This document shows positions 20,948-30,130 of a stretch of DNA of 30,130 bases, in pieces. The DNA comes from Candidatus Eiseniibacteriota bacterium (GTDB lineage Bacteria > JAFGKV01): contig JALOPK010000005.1 of assembly GCA_025453925.1 (NCBI GenBank), positions 1 to 30,130 of the forward strand, given 5' to 3'. The notes beneath the pieces are model-generated. The model was given only the letters and a program-made list of their open reading frames with translations, searched no databases and had not been told where the DNA came from. The stretch's first letter is position 1, and each line of letters starts with the position of its first letter. A program made the translations under genes and the position numbers.

Positions 20948-22024
20948 CTACGGCTGCACAGGAGCGACCAAGCCCGACTCAGGCTTCACATTGGGGGATG
21001 TGTCCGAGCGGACCCGCAGAACGCCAAACACGAGGCTCCCCACCGACAGCTGCAGGTAGAAGGTGAGCAATCTCCAGCCGGCTGTCATGAGGCCCAGGAG
21101 GCTTTCGGGAATGAGACCGCGGTGTACCAGCATGAATGCCGCCTCGAGACCGCCTGCCGCTCCGGGTGACGGCACGAACACACCGAGGGTGAACACCACC
21201 CATTGGAGAACGAAGAATCGCGACGGGTCAACACGGATGGAAAACGAGGCCAGGAGTGCCGAGACCACGGAGTACCGACACGCCCACTGGATCGCCGTGA
21301 GCGTCAGGGTTGCCAGAAGACGGGTCTTGCCGCGCCTGGCAATGAGCCGGTACACTCCCGCACAATCCGACCAGGCTGCTCCGACTCGGCGAGCGACGGG
21401 GTTTTTCCTGCCCCGTGTCAGGATGATCCATGCCCCCACGACTGCGCAGCATGTGGCCATGACTATATGCGGACCCCTGGTGCTGATGATGGTCGCGAAA
21501 CGGGCAAGACCCACCGGTGCCTGGACCGAGGTCACCAGAGCGACAGGGATTGCGAACGCGAAGAACACACCATCTTCCACGCTTCCCAACGTCATCAGCG
21601 AGGCCGCCGCGCCGACCGAAAGCCCTCGTTCGACGAGCATTCCGAGCTTCACGTAGCCCCCGCCGAAGGCGGTTGGGGTGATGGCTGACCCCAACTCGGT
21701 CCCGATCACCATGGAGAAAAGGTCATGAAGCGGGATCCTGGCTCCCAGGAAGCGTGTCCACACGCGCAGCCTTAGCGCGTGGGTAAACCAGGGAACGAAT
21801 CCAAGCAGCACCGCGAGTATCAGGTAGTCCAGCGCAACCCGTTGATGAACGAAGACCGCGCCGAAGTCCGTTGTTGAGGCAGTGAGCAGGAGATTGAAGA
21901 TCACTCCAGCCGGGATCAGAAGCAAAAGATGGCGGAAGACTGTCCGGATCCGATCCGGCTTTGCCTGTGCGTCAGGTCGTGCCAGCGCACGCCTGGCTGA
22001 GCGCCCTGCACTGAGGGTCTTCAT
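20948..22024 (-). CDS. YbhN/UPF0104 family integral membrane protein (LPG-synthase TM-like)
   Basis: This is a polytopic membrane protein of about 358 residues with seven or eight hydrophobic helices. It belongs to the family of the lysylphosphatidylglycerol synthase transmembrane region, some members of which act as lipid flippases. Typical landmarks are WFTHALRLRVW, GTELGSAITPTAFGGGYVKLGML near residue 110, and VFVPSPGAAGGLEAAF near residue 300. ATG 22024 is chosen; TTG 22042 is an alternative and neither has a clear ribosome site. It is the last gene of the glycolipid-type operon. A role in moving the glycolipid across the membrane would fit but is inference. Confidence 0.8.
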   Translation of the reverse strand: MKTLSAGRSARRALARPDAQAKPDRIRTVFRHLLLLIPAGVIFNLLLTASTTDFGAVFVHQRVALDYLILAVLLGFVPWFTHALRLRVWTRFLGARIPLHDLFSMVIGTELGSAITPTAFGGGYVKLGMLVERGLSVGAAASLMTLGSVEDGVFFAFAIPVALVTSVQAPVGLARFATIISTRGPHIVMATCCAVVGAWIILTRGRKNPVARRVGAAWSDCAGVYRLIARRGKTRLLATLTLTAIQWACRYSVVSALLASFSIRVDPSRFFVLQWVVFTLGVFVPSPGAAGGLEAAFMLVHRGLIPESLLGLMTAGWRLLTFYLQLSVGSLVFGVLRVRSDTSPNVKPESGLVAPVQP

Positions 22025-22063
22025 GGGTCCGCGAGGGGGCAAGGACCGGTGAGTGTGTGACCC

Positions 22064-23215
22064 CTACCGGGAACGGAGGCGCTCATAGGTCTCGAGGAGG
22101 CGGCTGATGGAAGACTCCCACGTAAGTGTGCGCTCGATCACCCTTCGGGCCTGTCGACCCTTCGCTCGGAGGCCGTTAGAGGAGAGCATGACAATGTTCT
22201 CGGCCATTGCAGCGGCCGAATCCACTTCCCCGAGCAGGCCGACGCTTTCGGGCACCCGCTCCAGTAAGGCCCCCGCGCGCACGCCGATGACCGGCAATCC
22301 CGACGCCTGGGCTTCTACGACCGAGAGTGCGAAGGTCTCATGAGGGCCCGCGGTGAGGTAGATGTCAGCCGAGGCCAGTACCCGTGCGAGTTCGTGCCGA
22401 TCGCTCTGGTAGGGCAGCAGCACGATTCGATCCGTGGAGGAGGCGACTGCCTCCACCCTGGCGCGCAACGGCCCGTCACCCACAATGACAAGCTTGCTTT
22501 CAACCCGTGGCATGGCCAGGGCGAAGGCCTCCAGCAGTACGTCTATCCGCTTCTCCCCGTCGATGCGTCCCGTGTAGGCAATGAGCACGTCACCGTCCTC
22601 GACGCCTAGATGACGACGCAACGTTTCGTCTCTCTTGTCGGGATGAAACAGCTCCGCGTCCACACCCAGGGGCACCTTCTCGATTCTTCTGACTCCGGCT
22701 GCGCGCAGCGTTTCGATCATGGTGTCTGATGCGGCGAGCACCGCATCACAGCGGTTGTACACGTGTCGTAGATGCCCCTCTGCGAGGCGGGTTCCCACTT
22801 CCGCGAGGCGCGGCGCGCGGCGGCGGAGAAACGGGCGCACGTAGGCATGGGGGTAGTCGGTATGACAGAAGCCGACCACTGAAGCGCCGCTGAGCCCTCT
22901 GAAAGCAAAGGCCACCAGGGGCAGCAGATAGCCGGTGCCCAGTTCGACAATCTCGGGCTCCTCTGCTCGGAGCAGTCGAAGCACTCTGTCCAGGCGGAGG
23001 ATGGCACGATAGGGGGCGCATCCGGGAATGACTGGACCGCGCAGCACATGGGTGACCATGCGTCCTTCACGGATCGTCTCGTCCCGGACACCCGGGACGA
23101 TCATGACGTGGCGGTGGGTTGTCCGGCGGAGGAGAAAGCGGCGTTTTTCCTGGAGGTAGGTGCGTATGCCTCCGCTGGTGGGTGTGTAGGCATTCGTGAG
23201 ATCGCAGATGGTCAT
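22064..23215 (-). CDS. GT4 family glycosyltransferase
   Basis: This is a 383-residue GT-B glycosyltransferase. The N-terminus MTICDLTNAYTPTSGGIRTY is a typical GT4 acceptor domain opening; FCHTDYPHAYVRPFL and LAASDTMIETLRAAGVRRIEKVPLGVD follow (seen as FCHTDYPHAYVR, VPLGVDAELFHPD). The donor domain has YTGRIDGEKRIDVLLEA, IVGDGPLRARVE and E-x7-E in HETFALSVVEA. ATG 23215 overlaps the stop of the PHP-domain gene by four bases (ATGA). In related organisms a PHP domain and a GT4 like this occur in one polypeptide, which suggests the two products act together. Confidence 0.88.
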   Translation of the reverse strand: MTICDLTNAYTPTSGGIRTYLQEKRRFLLRRTTHRHVMIVPGVRDETIREGRMVTHVLRGPVIPGCAPYRAILRLDRVLRLLRAEEPEIVELGTGYLLPLVAFAFRGLSGASVVGFCHTDYPHAYVRPFLRRRAPRLAEVGTRLAEGHLRHVYNRCDAVLAASDTMIETLRAAGVRRIEKVPLGVDAELFHPDKRDETLRRHLGVEDGDVLIAYTGRIDGEKRIDVLLEAFALAMPRVESKLVIVGDGPLRARVEAVASSTDRIVLLPYQSDRHELARVLASADIYLTAGPHETFALSVVEAQASGLPVIGVRAGALLERVPESVGLLGEVDSAAAMAENIVMLSSNGLRAKGRQARRVIERTLTWESSISRLLETYERLRSR

Positions 23216-25093: not shown

Positions 25094-26218
25094 CTAGTTC
25101 GTTGTCGTCCACAGGCTGCAGTAACTCCTGATGAGCCCAGCGTTTATGGCGTCCCAGCTGTACGATGCAGCGGTGTCTCGGGCCGCCCGGCCCATTGTGA
25201 CGCGGCGCGCCCCATCCAGGATCAGGGATTCCACCGCGTTGGCCATGCTCTGCGGATCATGTGGACAGGCGAGCACGCCGTCCTTGCCAGGCGTAATGAT
25301 GTCAGCAACCCCGCCTTGTGCGACTCCGATTGCCGGCAGGCCAGAGGCGAACGCCTCCAGAACGACGTTGCCGAACGTCTCAGTGGTGGAAGGGAAGACG
25401 AACAGATCAGCCGATGCATACCACGTTGACAGCAGATCCCCATGCTGGTACCCCGGGAATTGAGCATAGGGCAGCGCGTGCTGGAGCTCGTCACGCATGG
25501 GACCATCGCCGACGATGGCCAATGCGAACGGGCACCCGCGTTGTTCAAGGATACGAGAGGCCGCCACAAGGTCATCGAGGTCCTTCTCCTTCACGAGTCT
25601 GCCGACGAAGAGCAGCAGCGGCCTGTCCGCGGCTCCTACACTCCGCCTGAGAGCATCGCTGCGATAGGCCGGGGAGAACCGGTCGAGATCCACCCCCCGT
25701 TGCCACAGCTCAACTCGTCGGATGCCGCGCTCGGTCAACTCGCGCACTGCGCTGGGAGAAGGCGCATAGGTCTTCTCGAATTGATTGTGGAACCAGTGAA
25801 GGAACCGCCACCCGAGGCCCGCGACCTTAGTGAAGCCATAGTAGGAGAGGTAGGACACGAAGTGGGTATGGTAGCTGGAGACCGCAGGAAGTCCCCGTCG
25901 CCGCGCGTAGTCAGCTCCAAACATTCCCAGGAGGCTCGGACTGGTCACGTGAATCAGATCCGGCCGATACCGGTCCAGTTCCCGATCAAGTGGGTGCAGG
26001 TAGGGGATCGCGAGACGGTATTCCGAATAGAGGGCGACCGGCAGGGACACGAGCTTGTAGACGCGGTGACTCCAGGAGAACGACCTATCCGGCTTGAACG
26101 GAGAGAAGAATCGGTAATCGACTCCCCGCCTGTCCAGGCTCTGGGTCAGGTTGCACAGTGTGCGGACAACGCCATCCGTGTTGGGAGGAAGGCTCTCGGT
26201 GAAGTAGGCGACTCTCAT
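25094..26218 (-). CDS. GT4 glycosyltransferase, SQD2/MgtA/PimB-like
   Basis: This 374-residue GT-B enzyme resembles glycosyltransferases that put sugar on diacylglycerol or phosphatidylinositol. The N-terminus MRVAYFTESLPPNTDGVVRT and DLIHVTSPSLLGMFG, SSYHTHFVSYLSYYG are characteristic of this branch. The donor domain has FVGRLVKEKDLDDLV, IVGDGPMRDEL and E-x7-E in TETFGNVVLEAFASGLP. It starts at ATG 26218, two bases after the PAP2 stop. Together with the PAP2 phosphatase it could turn phosphatidic acid into glycosyl-diacylglycerol; the substrate is inferred from family and neighbours only. Confidence 0.88.
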   Translation of the reverse strand: MRVAYFTESLPPNTDGVVRTLCNLTQSLDRRGVDYRFFSPFKPDRSFSWSHRVYKLVSLPVALYSEYRLAIPYLHPLDRELDRYRPDLIHVTSPSLLGMFGADYARRRGLPAVSSYHTHFVSYLSYYGFTKVAGLGWRFLHWFHNQFEKTYAPSPSAVRELTERGIRRVELWQRGVDLDRFSPAYRSDALRRSVGAADRPLLLFVGRLVKEKDLDDLVAASRILEQRGCPFALAIVGDGPMRDELQHALPYAQFPGYQHGDLLSTWYASADLFVFPSTTETFGNVVLEAFASGLPAIGVAQGGVADIITPGKDGVLACPHDPQSMANAVESLILDGARRVTMGRAARDTAASYSWDAINAGLIRSYCSLWTTTN

Positions 26219-26220
26219 GA

Positions 26221-26751
26221 TTACCTCACCAGCCTGACGCCTATCCCGGCACTCACCATGCCCAAGATGGCACCGGCGATCACGTCACTGGGGTAATGGA
26301 CGCCATTGGCGACACGGGAGACGGCCACCAGTGCCGCCAGGGAGTAGCATGGAGCGGCCGCGCTCGGGTGGACGCTGGCCGCCAGCGAGGCAAAGACGAA
26401 GGCGCCCGCGGCGTGACCAGAAGGGAAGCTGAAGTCGCCAGGGGGCCGGACCCTCGCCAAGATAACCGCCGAGCGTCTGAAGGGGCGGGGCCGGCGGACA
26501 ATGGCCTTCACCGCGGTCTGCACCAGCAACTCTAGGGCGAAGGCAATGAGACCCGCGGGGATCACCGTGCGGAGCGTCGAAGGATCCTGGCATGCCAGGA
26601 GGCCCGCAGCAACCGCATAAGAGTGCCCATCGCCGAGCGCAGACGCGGCCTTCATCACGTCGGCTATGAGCCGCCTCTCCGCCACGCGGAAGGCGAACTG
26701 GGAACCAGAGAGATCCCATCGGTGCATCAGATGGAGGGCGGTTCCGTACAT
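26221..26751 (-). CDS. PAP2-family membrane phosphatase
   Basis: This is a 176-residue membrane protein of the type 2 phosphatidic acid phosphatase family, which removes phosphate from lipid phosphates such as phosphatidic acid or undecaprenyl pyrophosphate. All three catalytic motifs are visible: K82-x6-R89-P90, P110-S-G-H113 and S145-R-x5-H152-x3-D156. Several hydrophobic helices surround them. ATG 26751 has AGGAG 6 bases upstream. It is the first gene of the five-gene operon that continues with GT4, PHP, GT4 and the YbhN-like protein, and an 11-bp direct-repeat array lies 59 bases upstream of its start. Confidence 0.9.
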   Translation of the reverse strand: MYGTALHLMHRWDLSGSQFAFRVAERRLIADVMKAASALGDGHSYAVAAGLLACQDPSTLRTVIPAGLIAFALELLVQTAVKAIVRRPRPFRRSAVILARVRPPGDFSFPSGHAAGAFVFASLAASVHPSAAAPCYSLAALVAVSRVANGVHYPSDVIAGAILGMVSAGIGVRLVR

Positions 26752-26809
26752 GAAGGACTCCTGCCGGCTGGGGACCTATCCAACTCTCGACTCACACAAT
26801 GGGGCCGGG

Positions 26810-26849
26810 GCGTGCAGGTCGCGTGAGGACTGCGTGAGAATCGGGTGAG
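26810..26849. promoter_or_regulatory. Four-unit direct repeat with 11-bp period, candidate PhoB/OmpR-type operator
   Basis: Heptamers start exactly every 11 bases: GCGTGCA (26810), GCGTGAG (26821), GCGTGAG (26832) and GGGTGAG (26843), each followed by a 4-base spacer. Winged-helix response regulators of the OmpR/PhoB family bind such 7+4 arrays; read on the other strand the units are CTCACGC-like, similar in form to actinobacterial PHO boxes (GTTCACC units). The array lies between the divergent PAP2 operon and the secreted-protein gene at 26970. The identity of the regulator is inference. Confidence 0.5.
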
Positions 26850-26969: not shown

Positions 26970-27590
26970 ATGACAGGAGCGTTCGCCCTCGCAATCGTTC
27001 TCGCGGCCGCGGCCACGGGGAATCATGCGGCTATCTCAGGAGACACCGACCCGAGCGGCATCTACCTTACCACCATGGGCGACCTTTCGGTGCTTGTGGG
27101 TGAGAGATGTCTGGCGTTTTCCTACCTATCGGTGTTCGGCCCGACTGCGCACATCTACGATGGCGCAGGAATCGCCCGCGAGGAGGAGGCAGGCCGGTTC
27201 GTCTGGGCGGATGAACACGGCTCGGTGGCGTTCGTCTTCCACGGGGATGCCCTGCGGCTCGAGGTGGAGGGCATTGCTTCCTTCTGCGGGGCAGGGTGGC
27301 CCGGCGACACCGTCAGCATCGCCGCGAGGCATGCGCCGAGCCGCCGCGTGGTCGCGGTGGACCAGGCGCATTTCCACACGGTCGGTTCAGAAACGCCGGT
27401 CTCCCGGAGAGCCTATGTCGTGCGCGGCGACACCGTTGAGGTGGTTCCCACCCGCCATGGCAACGGCGAGGGCTTCGTCCTCGCCCGATTCGTGGGACCC
27501 GCGCGGACTACCGTCGGCCTTCTTCGCGAGCACGAACTGGCGCCCGAGCCCGCACCGAAACTCCCTCCCATCGCAACCGAAGCGCAGTAG
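26970..27590 (+). CDS. Small secreted protein of unknown function, possible SH3-like C-terminus
   Basis: This protein has 206 residues from ATG 26970, chosen because GAGGAGGAA lies just upstream and the signal peptide then starts at once (MTGAFALAIVLAAAATG, cleavage near residues 17-21). The middle contains FSYLSVFGPTAHIYDGAG and GIASFCGAGWPGD, with two cysteines (in ERCLAF and SFCGAG) that could form a disulfide. The last 60 residues, AYVVRGDTVEVVP to TTVGLLREHEL, look like a bacterial SH3 or wall-binding fold. No catalytic motif was recognised and I do not know the family. It is transcribed away from the PAP2 operon and toward the large peptidase gene; the 11-bp repeats lie about 120 bases upstream. 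A longer frame from 26853 has no ribosome site. Confidence 0.75.
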   Translation: MTGAFALAIVLAAAATGNHAAISGDTDPSGIYLTTMGDLSVLVGERCLAFSYLSVFGPTAHIYDGAGIAREEEAGRFVWADEHGSVAFVFHGDALRLEVEGIASFCGAGWPGDTVSIAARHAPSRRVVAVDQAHFHTVGSETPVSRRAYVVRGDTVEVVPTRHGNGEGFVLARFVGPARTTVGLLREHELAPEPAPKLPPIATEAQ

Positions 27591-27714: not shown

Positions 27715-30130
27715 CTACTTGACCAGGATCATGGGCACCACGAGGCTCGAACCTCGACGATCCTGGGCCTTCAGCAGATAGGTGCCCGAGCCCAGCCCGG
27801 GCCCCACTATCACCCCTTCCAATCTCGCGTCCACCGGCAGGGATCGAACTCGCGCGCCGCGCACGTCATACACGTCGAGCCGTACCGGCCCGATGGCCCC
27901 GTCGATTCGAACCATGACGTCGTAACGGGCCGGCACAGGCGTCACTGCCAGTGCGAGCCGTTGCGGCATGGTCGTCGGGCCCGGCCCGGCCGCTCCCGGC
28001 CGGAGCAGTGCACTGGTGTGGGCAGGGTCGCGACCATTCTGCGGCCAGTCATCCGCCGGGCCGGCCGGCAGGCCGAGGGCCCAGACCTGCATCGTTCCCT
28101 GCGTCCCGGGCAGGATCACGTCGGTCGTGAGGTCGCCGTCCACATCGGCCACCGCGGGGCCGGCCTGGAGCTGCTCGCCCAACAGGAGCGGCCAGCCCTC
28201 CGTGCAGGTGCCCGCGCCCTCGTACACCGAGATCTTCCCCTGTTCCGATGCTACGGCAACCTCCTGTGCACCGTCTCCGTCCAGATCGGCGATCACGGGG
28301 CTGGCCCAGACTTCGGCTCCCGTCGCGCGGGGCCAACCGGGGAGCTCAACGCCTTCTCCATCCAGAACGTGGATCATGCCCGACAGGGTGGCGACGACCA
28401 CTTCGGCCCGGCCATCGCCATCAAGATCGCCCAGAGCGCACGGCGCCTGCACCCGTTCCCCGAGGACGGCGGGCCACCCGGGAAGCGCGGCACCCGCCAG
28501 ATCGAACGCCGCGACGCTCCCCGTTTCATCTGCGACCACAATGGCGGCGATTCCACCGTCGAACACGCCAAGCGCGGCGCCGCCCCATGATCGACCCGCC
28601 AGGGAGTTCGGCCATCCGGCCAGTTCCTGACCTTCTGCGGAGAACACGTGCAGCATGCTGTCCATCGACGCCACCGCAAGTTCCGGCCTTCCGTCGCCAT
28701 TCAGATCTCCGGCGGCCGGAGAGGAGTAGAGCGGGGCTCCCACGGCCACGGGCCAGCCGGGGGCCGAGACTCCACCGGCCGTGAGGCACACCAGGTCGCC
28801 GGAGAAACTGGCGGCGACGATCTCAAGGCCGCCATCGCCATCGAGATCCACCGCCGTCACGGGGTTAGGAATGCCGTACTGCGAGCCGGAAAGGGAATTG
28901 GGCCACCCAGGGCGCTCGCTTCCATCCAGCCCGAACACGTGGAGCTTCGCGCCACGGGTACCGACGATCACCTCAAGAGACCCATCCCCATCAAGATCGG
29001 CGAGCGTCGGCGTGGCCCAGAGCTGGTCCTGGATCTGCACCGGCCACCCCGGCAGGGGCTGCCCGGCGGAATCCAGAAGGTTGATTCTCCCATTCCGGTC
29101 GCTTGCCCCAAGAACTCCATCAGCATACACAGGGCTGCTCGCCAATATGCCCAGCCCCGTCGCGGGCCAGCCGGCCAGTGGTGAGGGCGTGTCGGGATGG
29201 TCCTGGGTGAACTCCTGATAGGTGAGCGTGAGATCGACCTCGGACGTATTGCAGACGACCATCACCTCCGGGTCCCATGTCGCGCCGAATCCGTCGAGGG
29301 ATACGACAAGAGTGCCCGCCACCTCACCCCGGTCATAGACCTCCATTGACCCACCACAGAATGGATACCGCACGTGGAGCACGTCGAGGTGGCGCCATTC
29401 ATCGCCTGGGCCGCTGATCGCCCACTCCATCAAGGCCCCGTCCCGGAGCCGCAGGTAGTCGATGCCCCACACCGCCACCTGCTCTGATGTTGAAGGGACG
29501 GGATAGGTTCCATGATCCTGGGCGAGACCCGGAGCGAGCGGCAGGTTGATCAGCGAGTACCCATACGCACCGCCGTGGAAGTCGGGCGACGGGTTGTCAA
29601 TGAGAATCGCCAGACTCCAGTTCTTGAACAGAGTCGCGAAATCAAGTTCGAAGCCCGAATCCTGCAGCGCATTCTCGATCCCGGTGATGCCGTTGGCGGG
29701 CTCAGCCAGGAGGGAGCGGGTGAACGGTGGTCCGCCGAAGCGGTCATATAGGTAGATGGCGAAAAGCGCGGTGCAGAAGTAGTCGCCCTCATCCGGCTCC
29801 CAGTTGGTGAGGGAAGCATCGGTGTTCTGTGCCCACGTGTCCGCCCATCCCCCGGCATTGAGATACCCCACCAGGAGTTCGGCGAGGCCGGAGCAGCCTT
29901 CGTTGATCCACAGTACTTCGTTGGCATCCTGGTTCCAGTTGATCATGTGCTGGAGCTCATGTGCCGGCACGACTGCGCCGAAGTCGGACGTGCGCGGATC
30001 CAGATTGTCGTCGTAGTACAGCATGTCCAGCTCATTGCTCGTCGGGTACACCGATGACGGGTACTCGTTGGTCGGGCTGAAGTAGCCGCCCACACCCGCG
30101 GGACCGATGTTGAGCACGAGAATATGGATG
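27715..30130 (-). CDS. Large secreted metallopeptidase-like protein with propeller repeats (N-terminus outside window)
   Basis: At least 800 residues are visible and the frame is still open at the window edge, so the N-terminus is missing. Near the visible start is HELQHMINW, an HExxH zinc-peptidase motif, with a possible glutamate ligand in NEGCSGLAE about 20 residues later (gluzincin-like, M30-type arrangement). From about residue 315 there are roughly eight tandem repeats of 45-50 residues, each with a GWP motif (LPGWPVQI, RPGWPNSL, APGWPVAV and so on) and often a DLDGDG calcium-type loop, forming an FG-GAP/VCBS-like beta-propeller. WPQNGRDPAHTS closes the repeats. The last 80 residues (VRLDVYDVRGARVRSL ... 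GSGTYLLKAQD) look like a FlgD/Por-type C-terminal sorting domain. A surface or secreted enzyme acting on extracellular protein is likely; the actual substrate is unknown. Confidence 0.85.
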   Translation of the reverse strand, partial: IHILVLNIGPAGVGGYFSPTNEYPSSVYPTSNELDMLYYDDNLDPRTSDFGAVVPAHELQHMINWNQDANEVLWINEGCSGLAELLVGYLNAGGWADTWAQNTDASLTNWEPDEGDYFCTALFAIYLYDRFGGPPFTRSLLAEPANGITGIENALQDSGFELDFATLFKNWSLAILIDNPSPDFHGGAYGYSLINLPLAPGLAQDHGTYPVPSTSEQVAVWGIDYLRLRDGALMEWAISGPGDEWRHLDVLHVRYPFCGGSMEVYDRGEVAGTLVVSLDGFGATWDPEVMVVCNTSEVDLTLTYQEFTQDHPDTPSPLAGWPATGLGILASSPVYADGVLGASDRNGRINLLDSAGQPLPGWPVQIQDQLWATPTLADLDGDGSLEVIVGTRGAKLHVFGLDGSERPGWPNSLSGSQYGIPNPVTAVDLDGDGGLEIVAASFSGDLVCLTAGGVSAPGWPVAVGAPLYSSPAAGDLNGDGRPELAVASMDSMLHVFSAEGQELAGWPNSLAGRSWGGAALGVFDGGIAAIVVADETGSVAAFDLAGAALPGWPAVLGERVQAPCALGDLDGDGRAEVVVATLSGMIHVLDGEGVELPGWPRATGAEVWASPVIADLDGDGAQEVAVASEQGKISVYEGAGTCTEGWPLLLGEQLQAGPAVADVDGDLTTDVILPGTQGTMQVWALGLPAGPADDWPQNGRDPAHTSALLRPGAAGPGPTTMPQRLALAVTPVPARYDVMVRIDGAIGPVRLDVYDVRGARVRSLPVDARLEGVIVGPGLGSGTYLLKAQDRRGSSLVVPMILVK

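Follow-up and report, generated by a model that had tools for sequence, protein, structure and literature searches.

A putative four-unit Pho box precedes a five-gene operon predicted to glycosylate membrane lipids in a Candidatus Eiseniibacteriota bacterium

Bacteria that replace their phospholipids when starved of phosphate have been described chiefly among Proteobacteria, cyanobacteria and a few other groups, which do so via PlcP-Agt and SQDG enzymes. In the PlcP-Agt system a Pho box lies before a gene pair encoding a phospholipase and a diacylglycerol (DAG) glycosyltransferase (PMC8528852), and Agt is also found in D. alaskensis (PMC5193443). The PHO box is built of 11-nt direct repeats, each with seven conserved and four variable bases, which are bound head to tail by the response regulator; its motif in S. 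coelicolor is GTTCACC (PMC4415409). Glucosaminyl-phosphatidylglycerol (GlcN-PG) is the product of the GpgSDF enzymes of P. aeruginosa (PMC12713373).

We analyzed a window of 30,130 nucleotides (the whole stretch of DNA studied here), which represents contig C60 of a 3.9-Mb draft genome (G000, 82% complete), and compared it with the genomes of a sister species (G001) and a family member (G002). A sequence-only reading had described four repeats upstream of a PAP2-GT4 operon, and its positions and period proved exact when the window was read: GCGTGCA, GCGTGAG, GCGTGAG and GGGTGAG begin at 26810, 26821, 26832 and 26843, precisely 11 bp apart. The functional strand is the minus strand, in the direction of the PAP2 operon, on which the units read CTCACCC, CTCACGC, CTCACGC and TGCACGC with GATT, AGTC and GACC between them. 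The end of the array lies 59 bp upstream of the PAP2 start codon (Table 1). It shares with described PHO boxes the 11-nt repeats (about 7 + 4), the TCAC core seen in S. coelicolor, a fixed distance to the -10 element and an occurrence before pst, but differs in having four units of a lineage-specific CTCAC/CTAAC type, and we treat it as a putative PhoB site. Judged from the sequence comparisons that follow, the four repeats are very probably a PhoB-binding array that precedes a five-gene operon for lipid glycosylation.

Table 1. Features of the array, the operon and its surroundings, and arrays used for comparison.
Feature	Position	Strand	Basis or remark
Pho-box unit 1 (putative)	26839..26849	minus	CTCACCCGATT; sequence and array alignment
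Pho-box unit 2 (putative)	26828..26838	minus	CTCACGCAGTC; sequence, genome pattern search and array alignment
Pho-box unit 3 (putative)	26817..26827	minus	CTCACGCGACC; sequence, genome pattern search and array alignment
Pho-box unit 4 (putative), weakest (TGCAC)	26806..26816	minus	TGCACGCCCCG; sequence and array alignment
-10-like hexamer CATTGT	26796..26801	minus	15 bases from unit 4 start; array comparison
Ribosome-binding site AGGAG before PAP2	26758..26762	minus	sequence
PAP2 phosphatase	26221..26751	minus	PF01569 4e-22; motifs intact
GT4a glycosyltransferase	25094..26218	minus	78% identity in sister species, 59% in KSB1
PHP-domain metal hydrolase, 623 aa	23212..25083	minus	PHP residues ~31-270; GT4 N-lobe remnant residues ~438-601
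GT4b glycosyltransferase	22064..23215	minus	nearest NCBIfam NF053787 GlcNAc-PG synthase
LPG_synthase_TM / flippase-like membrane protein	20948..22042	minus	PF03706, TIGR00374
Divergent signal-peptide protein, 206 aa	26970..27590	plus	no Pfam match; outside module by the evidence here
pst array, G000			TTCAC-CTAAC-CTCAC-TACAC; four units
pst array, G001			TTCAT-TTCAT-CTCAC-CTCAC; four units
pst array, G002			CTCAC-CTAAC-CTCAT-CTAAC; four units
PAP2-operon array, G001			CACAT-CTCAC-CTCAT-TTCAT; four units, place matching window array

We searched the three genomes for the three CTCAC units of the window at 11-bp spacing. The few matches included, in each genome, an intergenic site on the contig that carries phoU. 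This site precedes a porin-pstSCAB-phoU operon in all three (contigs G000:C455, G001:C131 and G002:C148), and in G001 and G002 phoB-phoR flanks it on the other side, so that it occupies the phoR-pst intergenic region. The sister species has the PAP2 operon with an array at the corresponding place, while G002 carries the pst array and lacks the PAP2 operon. Besides Pst-PhoU, G000 encodes a PhoB-type response regulator on contig C486 (TIGR02154, 255 bits, below the cut-off of 296) with a histidine kinase gene next to it. The orthologue of this regulator adjoins pst in both G001 and G002; the G001 protein is 75% identical and is encoded within the phoB-phoR-pst cluster.

Two further sequence patterns were seen in these genomes. 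The palindrome TAGGACATGTCCTA occurs at 11 sites in G000, three in G001 and none in G002 (control 0), with copies upstream of PAP2 at G001:C220:2237-2250 and just past phoR at G000:C486:2907-2920; the two copies that were read are extended by more A/T, and the element may be an operator or a dispersed repeat. G002 has TTAAC/TTCAC arrays at 11 bp at C258:13463-13549, C232:3398-3920, C81:13909-13962 and C182:7036-7100. They lie upstream of genes for pilus-like, secreted or membrane proteins and may belong to a wider Pho regulon.

The pattern is rare. Three perfect CTCAC units at 11 bp occur at a single site in the 3.9 Mb of G000, the window array. The 40-bp array pattern with up to three mismatches matched once in the window and in none of 100 dinucleotide shuffles, a post hoc test, as the pattern was derived from the array itself. 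We also used a composite pattern of four YTMAY units plus ATNNT, written after all five arrays had been viewed and without requiring the PAP2 sites. It fits the three pst arrays with 0, 0 or 1 mismatches and the window array with 1, and the second-best upstream region within the window has 6. At up to one mismatch it finds only the pst and PAP2 promoters in the whole 3.9 Mb of G000, and only the pst and PAP2 sites in the 4.8 Mb of G001; the reversed pattern, allowed three mismatches, gave none in G000 and one in G001. The strict array is not scattered at random: its sole other site in G000 precedes the pst operon, in line with the association with phosphate genes that the initial reading had expected. 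A short pattern of two units gave 15 matches versus 9 for its reversed control, so two units alone are uninformative.

In all five arrays an xATxxT hexamer begins 15 bases past the point where the last unit starts (CATCTT, CATATT, TATCAT, CATTGT and CATCTT), an offset that does not vary among the pst and PAP2 arrays compared. A -10 criterion played no part in first noticing the pst arrays and the two PAP2 arrays. Each of 11 arrays has a -10-like hexamer at offset 48, with a mean of 3.91 of 6 matches to TATAAT compared to at most 2.27 at offsets 40-47. The -10 element of E. coli phoA lies at an equal offset. The window promoter has a poor -10, CATTGT, and no proper -35, and the placement of array and hexamer would fit an activator that replaces the -35 element. 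This arrangement also bears on the divergent secreted-protein gene at 26970, which had been suggested to share the control. The array lies within the shared intergenic region and PhoB-type activators are able to act at a distance, so it might drive this gene as well, or instead. Yet it is towards PAP2 that the conserved -10 lies, the distance from array to PAP2 is similar across phyla and the sister species has no comparable divergent gene there; we therefore consider control of the divergent gene improbable and did not retain the suggestion. Large secreted proteins are encoded elsewhere in the window as well (656-2956 and 27715-30129), one with a Por_Secre_tail/FlgD-like C-terminus and one with FG-GAP repeats.

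The operon and its array recur in a second phylum. A KSB1 genome (WJMF01000192) carries both, with the units TTCAC-TTAAC-TTTAT-CTAAT and TACATT at the -10 position. The PHP gene is found in 9 of 82 genomes of the KSB1 phylum, and PAP2, GT4a and the PHP gene follow in identical order in six of them. GT4b and the flippase gene are complete in G047, G428, G429 and G418; for G426 and G419, our simple gene caller did not recover the two together. All six operon genomes have an array 71-94 bp upstream of PAP2 with 2-4 mismatches, some of them with four (shuffle p 0.003-0.017), and the variant G439 has one 101 bp upstream. The combined shuffle p of 2e-25 is indicative only, given a p floor of 0.0033 and the relatedness of the KSB1 sequences, and the -10 agreement in KSB1 is partly due to selection since arrays were chosen as the best match of a pattern that includes the -10. 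The operon of G429 and phoB-phoR are arranged divergently. The array is thus present before the PAP2 operon both in the sister species and in KSB1 genomes. Among about 109 unrelated PAP2 genes, mostly from Clostridia, an array with up to three mismatches was found at only four, two of them those of the sister species and KSB1, which indicates that the array tracks the operon and not PAP2 genes in general.

The operon runs on the minus strand in the order PAP2, GT4a, PHP protein, GT4b and flippase-like protein. PAP2 and GT4 enzymes had been recognized in the sequence-only reading and are confirmed, but the set is larger: besides PAP2 and two GT4s it holds a PHP hydrolase that carries a truncated GT4 lobe, as well as the flippase-like protein. 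The PAP2 motifs KX6RP, PSGH and SRX5HX3D are intact (K82, R89-P90, P110-H113, S145-R146, H152 and D156). GT4a scores 77 bits across most of the length of the alpha-MGlcDAG synthase model (cut-off 400), and a plasmid tblastn search with GT4a yielded generic glycosyltransferases only. The 623-aa protein has no Pfam match at 1e-3. Its structure model (mean pLDDT 73) has a PHP domain resembling 3e38 (VIA-align Z 19.3, rmsd 3.3, 198 aligned) and 2anu (Z 18.5), with a Foldseek E of 2.5e-8 to 7ug9, while residues 438-601 resemble the N-terminal lobe of GT4 enzymes (Z 8-10 to HepE, BshA and MshA). The PHP metal ligands H38, H40, D82/H83, E103, H116, H155, D231 and H233 are invariant in eight homologues.

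Many other genomes encode a fusion of the PHP domain to a complete GT4 domain, in proteins of about 800-850 aa. Arrays accompany the fusion genes of G242, G166, G477, G515, G466 and G489; that of G499 has a perfect array which the narrower promoter window of the 32-promoter test missed. No array was found at the PHP-GT4 genes of G146, G157, G305, G085 and G377. BLAST against the Pst/Pho proteins of the window genome identified phosphate genes next to several of these loci. G184 and G039 share the order phosphoglucomutase, PHP-GT4, GT4b, deacetylase-like gene, pstB and phoU; the PHP-GT4 gene lies beside pstA/C-like, pstB and phoU genes in G515, beside phoU and phoBR in G536 and beside pstS and pstC in G488. 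A protein with a PhoU domain and a phosphotransferase (APH) domain is encoded near the pstB-phoU-PHP-GT4 cluster on G184:C46 and G039:C66. A literature search combining PHP domain and glycosyltransferase with phosphate limitation, glycolipid or diacylglycerol found no relevant paper. These loci may reflect a Pho-controlled remodelling route distinct from PlcP-Agt and present in several phyla, with a PHP hydrolase-GT4 core, often one protein of ~800 aa, that would turn phospholipid into glycolipid and that is split here, with PAP2, another GT4 and a flippase added; we put this forward tentatively, at slightly less than even chances.

The linkage to phosphate genes also speaks to the identity of the regulator. 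Direct repeats of 11 bp are common to many OmpR-family regulators, and G000 encodes a second OmpR-type response regulator on contig C92, which might bind the array in place of PhoB. We regard this as very unlikely because the array lies before pst in G000 and in the phoR-pst intergenic region of G001 and G002, and because module loci repeatedly adjoin pst, phoU or phoBR. Of the 32 module promoters, 16 have up to three mismatches at period 11, compared to 0-1 at periods 8, 9, 10, 12, 13 and 14, and the same threshold is reached at 12 of 27 module starts versus 7 of 145 other intergenic-led genes on the same contigs (Fisher p 5e-7); both figures are indicative only, since for some genes of the set the array was known beforehand and the sequences are not independent of one another. 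Repeats of 5-7 bp occur often and looser patterns do yield background matches, but the genome-wide uniqueness of the array, its pst partner, its conservation in the sister species and KSB1 and the period specificity leave a chance repeat in GC-rich DNA a negligible probability. The pst pairing, the conservation, the linkage to pho genes and the restriction to period 11 together argue for a Pho-box array that controls a membrane-lipid operon.

What this operon makes is less certain. It resembles PlcP-Agt by its logic, a Pho box before phosphatase and DAG-type glycosyltransferase genes, but it comprises a PAP2 phosphatase, a PHP hydrolase, a pair of GT4s and a flippase-like protein, and a calcineurin-like PlcP phospholipase C beside a glycosyltransferase is absent from it. 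With GpgSDF it shares a GT4b and a flippase-like protein whose nearest models are GpgS and GpgF, yet their scores are 276 bits (NF053787, GlcNAc-PG synthase; cut-off 480) and 55 bits (NF053789; cut-off 320), the window operon holds no deacetylase gene, and it adds PAP2, GT4a, the PHP gene and the Pho box. HexSDF of C. difficile belongs to another organism group and is regulated differently. Its likeness, by description, lies in the logic of synthase, deacetylase and flippase (PMC10128005).

As GT4b and the flippase-like protein are nearest to the enzymes that make GlcN-PG, itself a phospholipid, a phosphate-saving product is uncertain. The array could be a Pho box and the operon product a glycosylated phospholipid similar to GlcN-PG, which would alter membrane charge and save no phosphate. 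This would agree with those nearest models, with the KSB1 flippase-like protein (86 bits) and with G184, where a GlcNAc-PG-deacetylase-like DUF2334 protein and pstB-phoU come after the PHP-GT4/GT4b pair. Against it, every score is far under its curated cut-off, the window operon is without the deacetylase, PAP2 and the PHP hydrolase suggest phosphate removal, and phosphate control is most sensible for phosphorus-free lipids; we consider a glycosyl-PG unlikely but the main rival. Given the PlcP-Agt-like logic without PlcP and the similarity to GpgS/GpgF, a glycosyl-DAG is the likeliest product, at somewhat better than even chances.

With good confidence, we interpret the array as a Pho box of four units through which PhoB would activate a phosphate-sparing glycolipid operon under phosphate limitation. 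From sequence and protein families, we infer PhoB binding, induction, substrates and lipid product as follows. At low phosphate, phosphorylated PhoB (encoded on C486) would bind the direct repeats head to tail, substitute for the missing -35 and bring RNA polymerase to the -10 hexamer, switching on all five genes. PAP2 and/or the PHP hydrolase may then strip phosphate-bearing head groups to leave diacylglycerol as the acceptor that GT4a and GT4b would glycosylate; the flippase-like protein would carry the glycolipid across the membrane, sparing phosphate.

The pst pairing, the sister species, KSB1 and the encoded PhoB/PhoR and Pst-PhoU all uphold a Pho-type 11-bp array upstream of the PAP2-GT4 operon, and support the finding as real and the sequence-only reading as correct in essence. 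The operon is probably a new form of phosphate-controlled lipid remodelling of the PlcP-Agt type, and the recurring PHP-GT4 core is its most interesting extension. A putative operator of an uncultured lineage was thereby obtained from sequence alone. If true, a second enzyme set marked by a Pho box would explain phosphate economy in KSB1 and other uncultured phyla, offer a marker gene by which phosphorus-free lipids could be traced in soils and sediments, and give PHP-GT4 fusion proteins a first function. Because the array stands before pst and before the KSB1 operon, bacteria of poorly known phyla probably replace phospholipids by sugar lipids when phosphate is exhausted, using an enzyme set unlike the known one.
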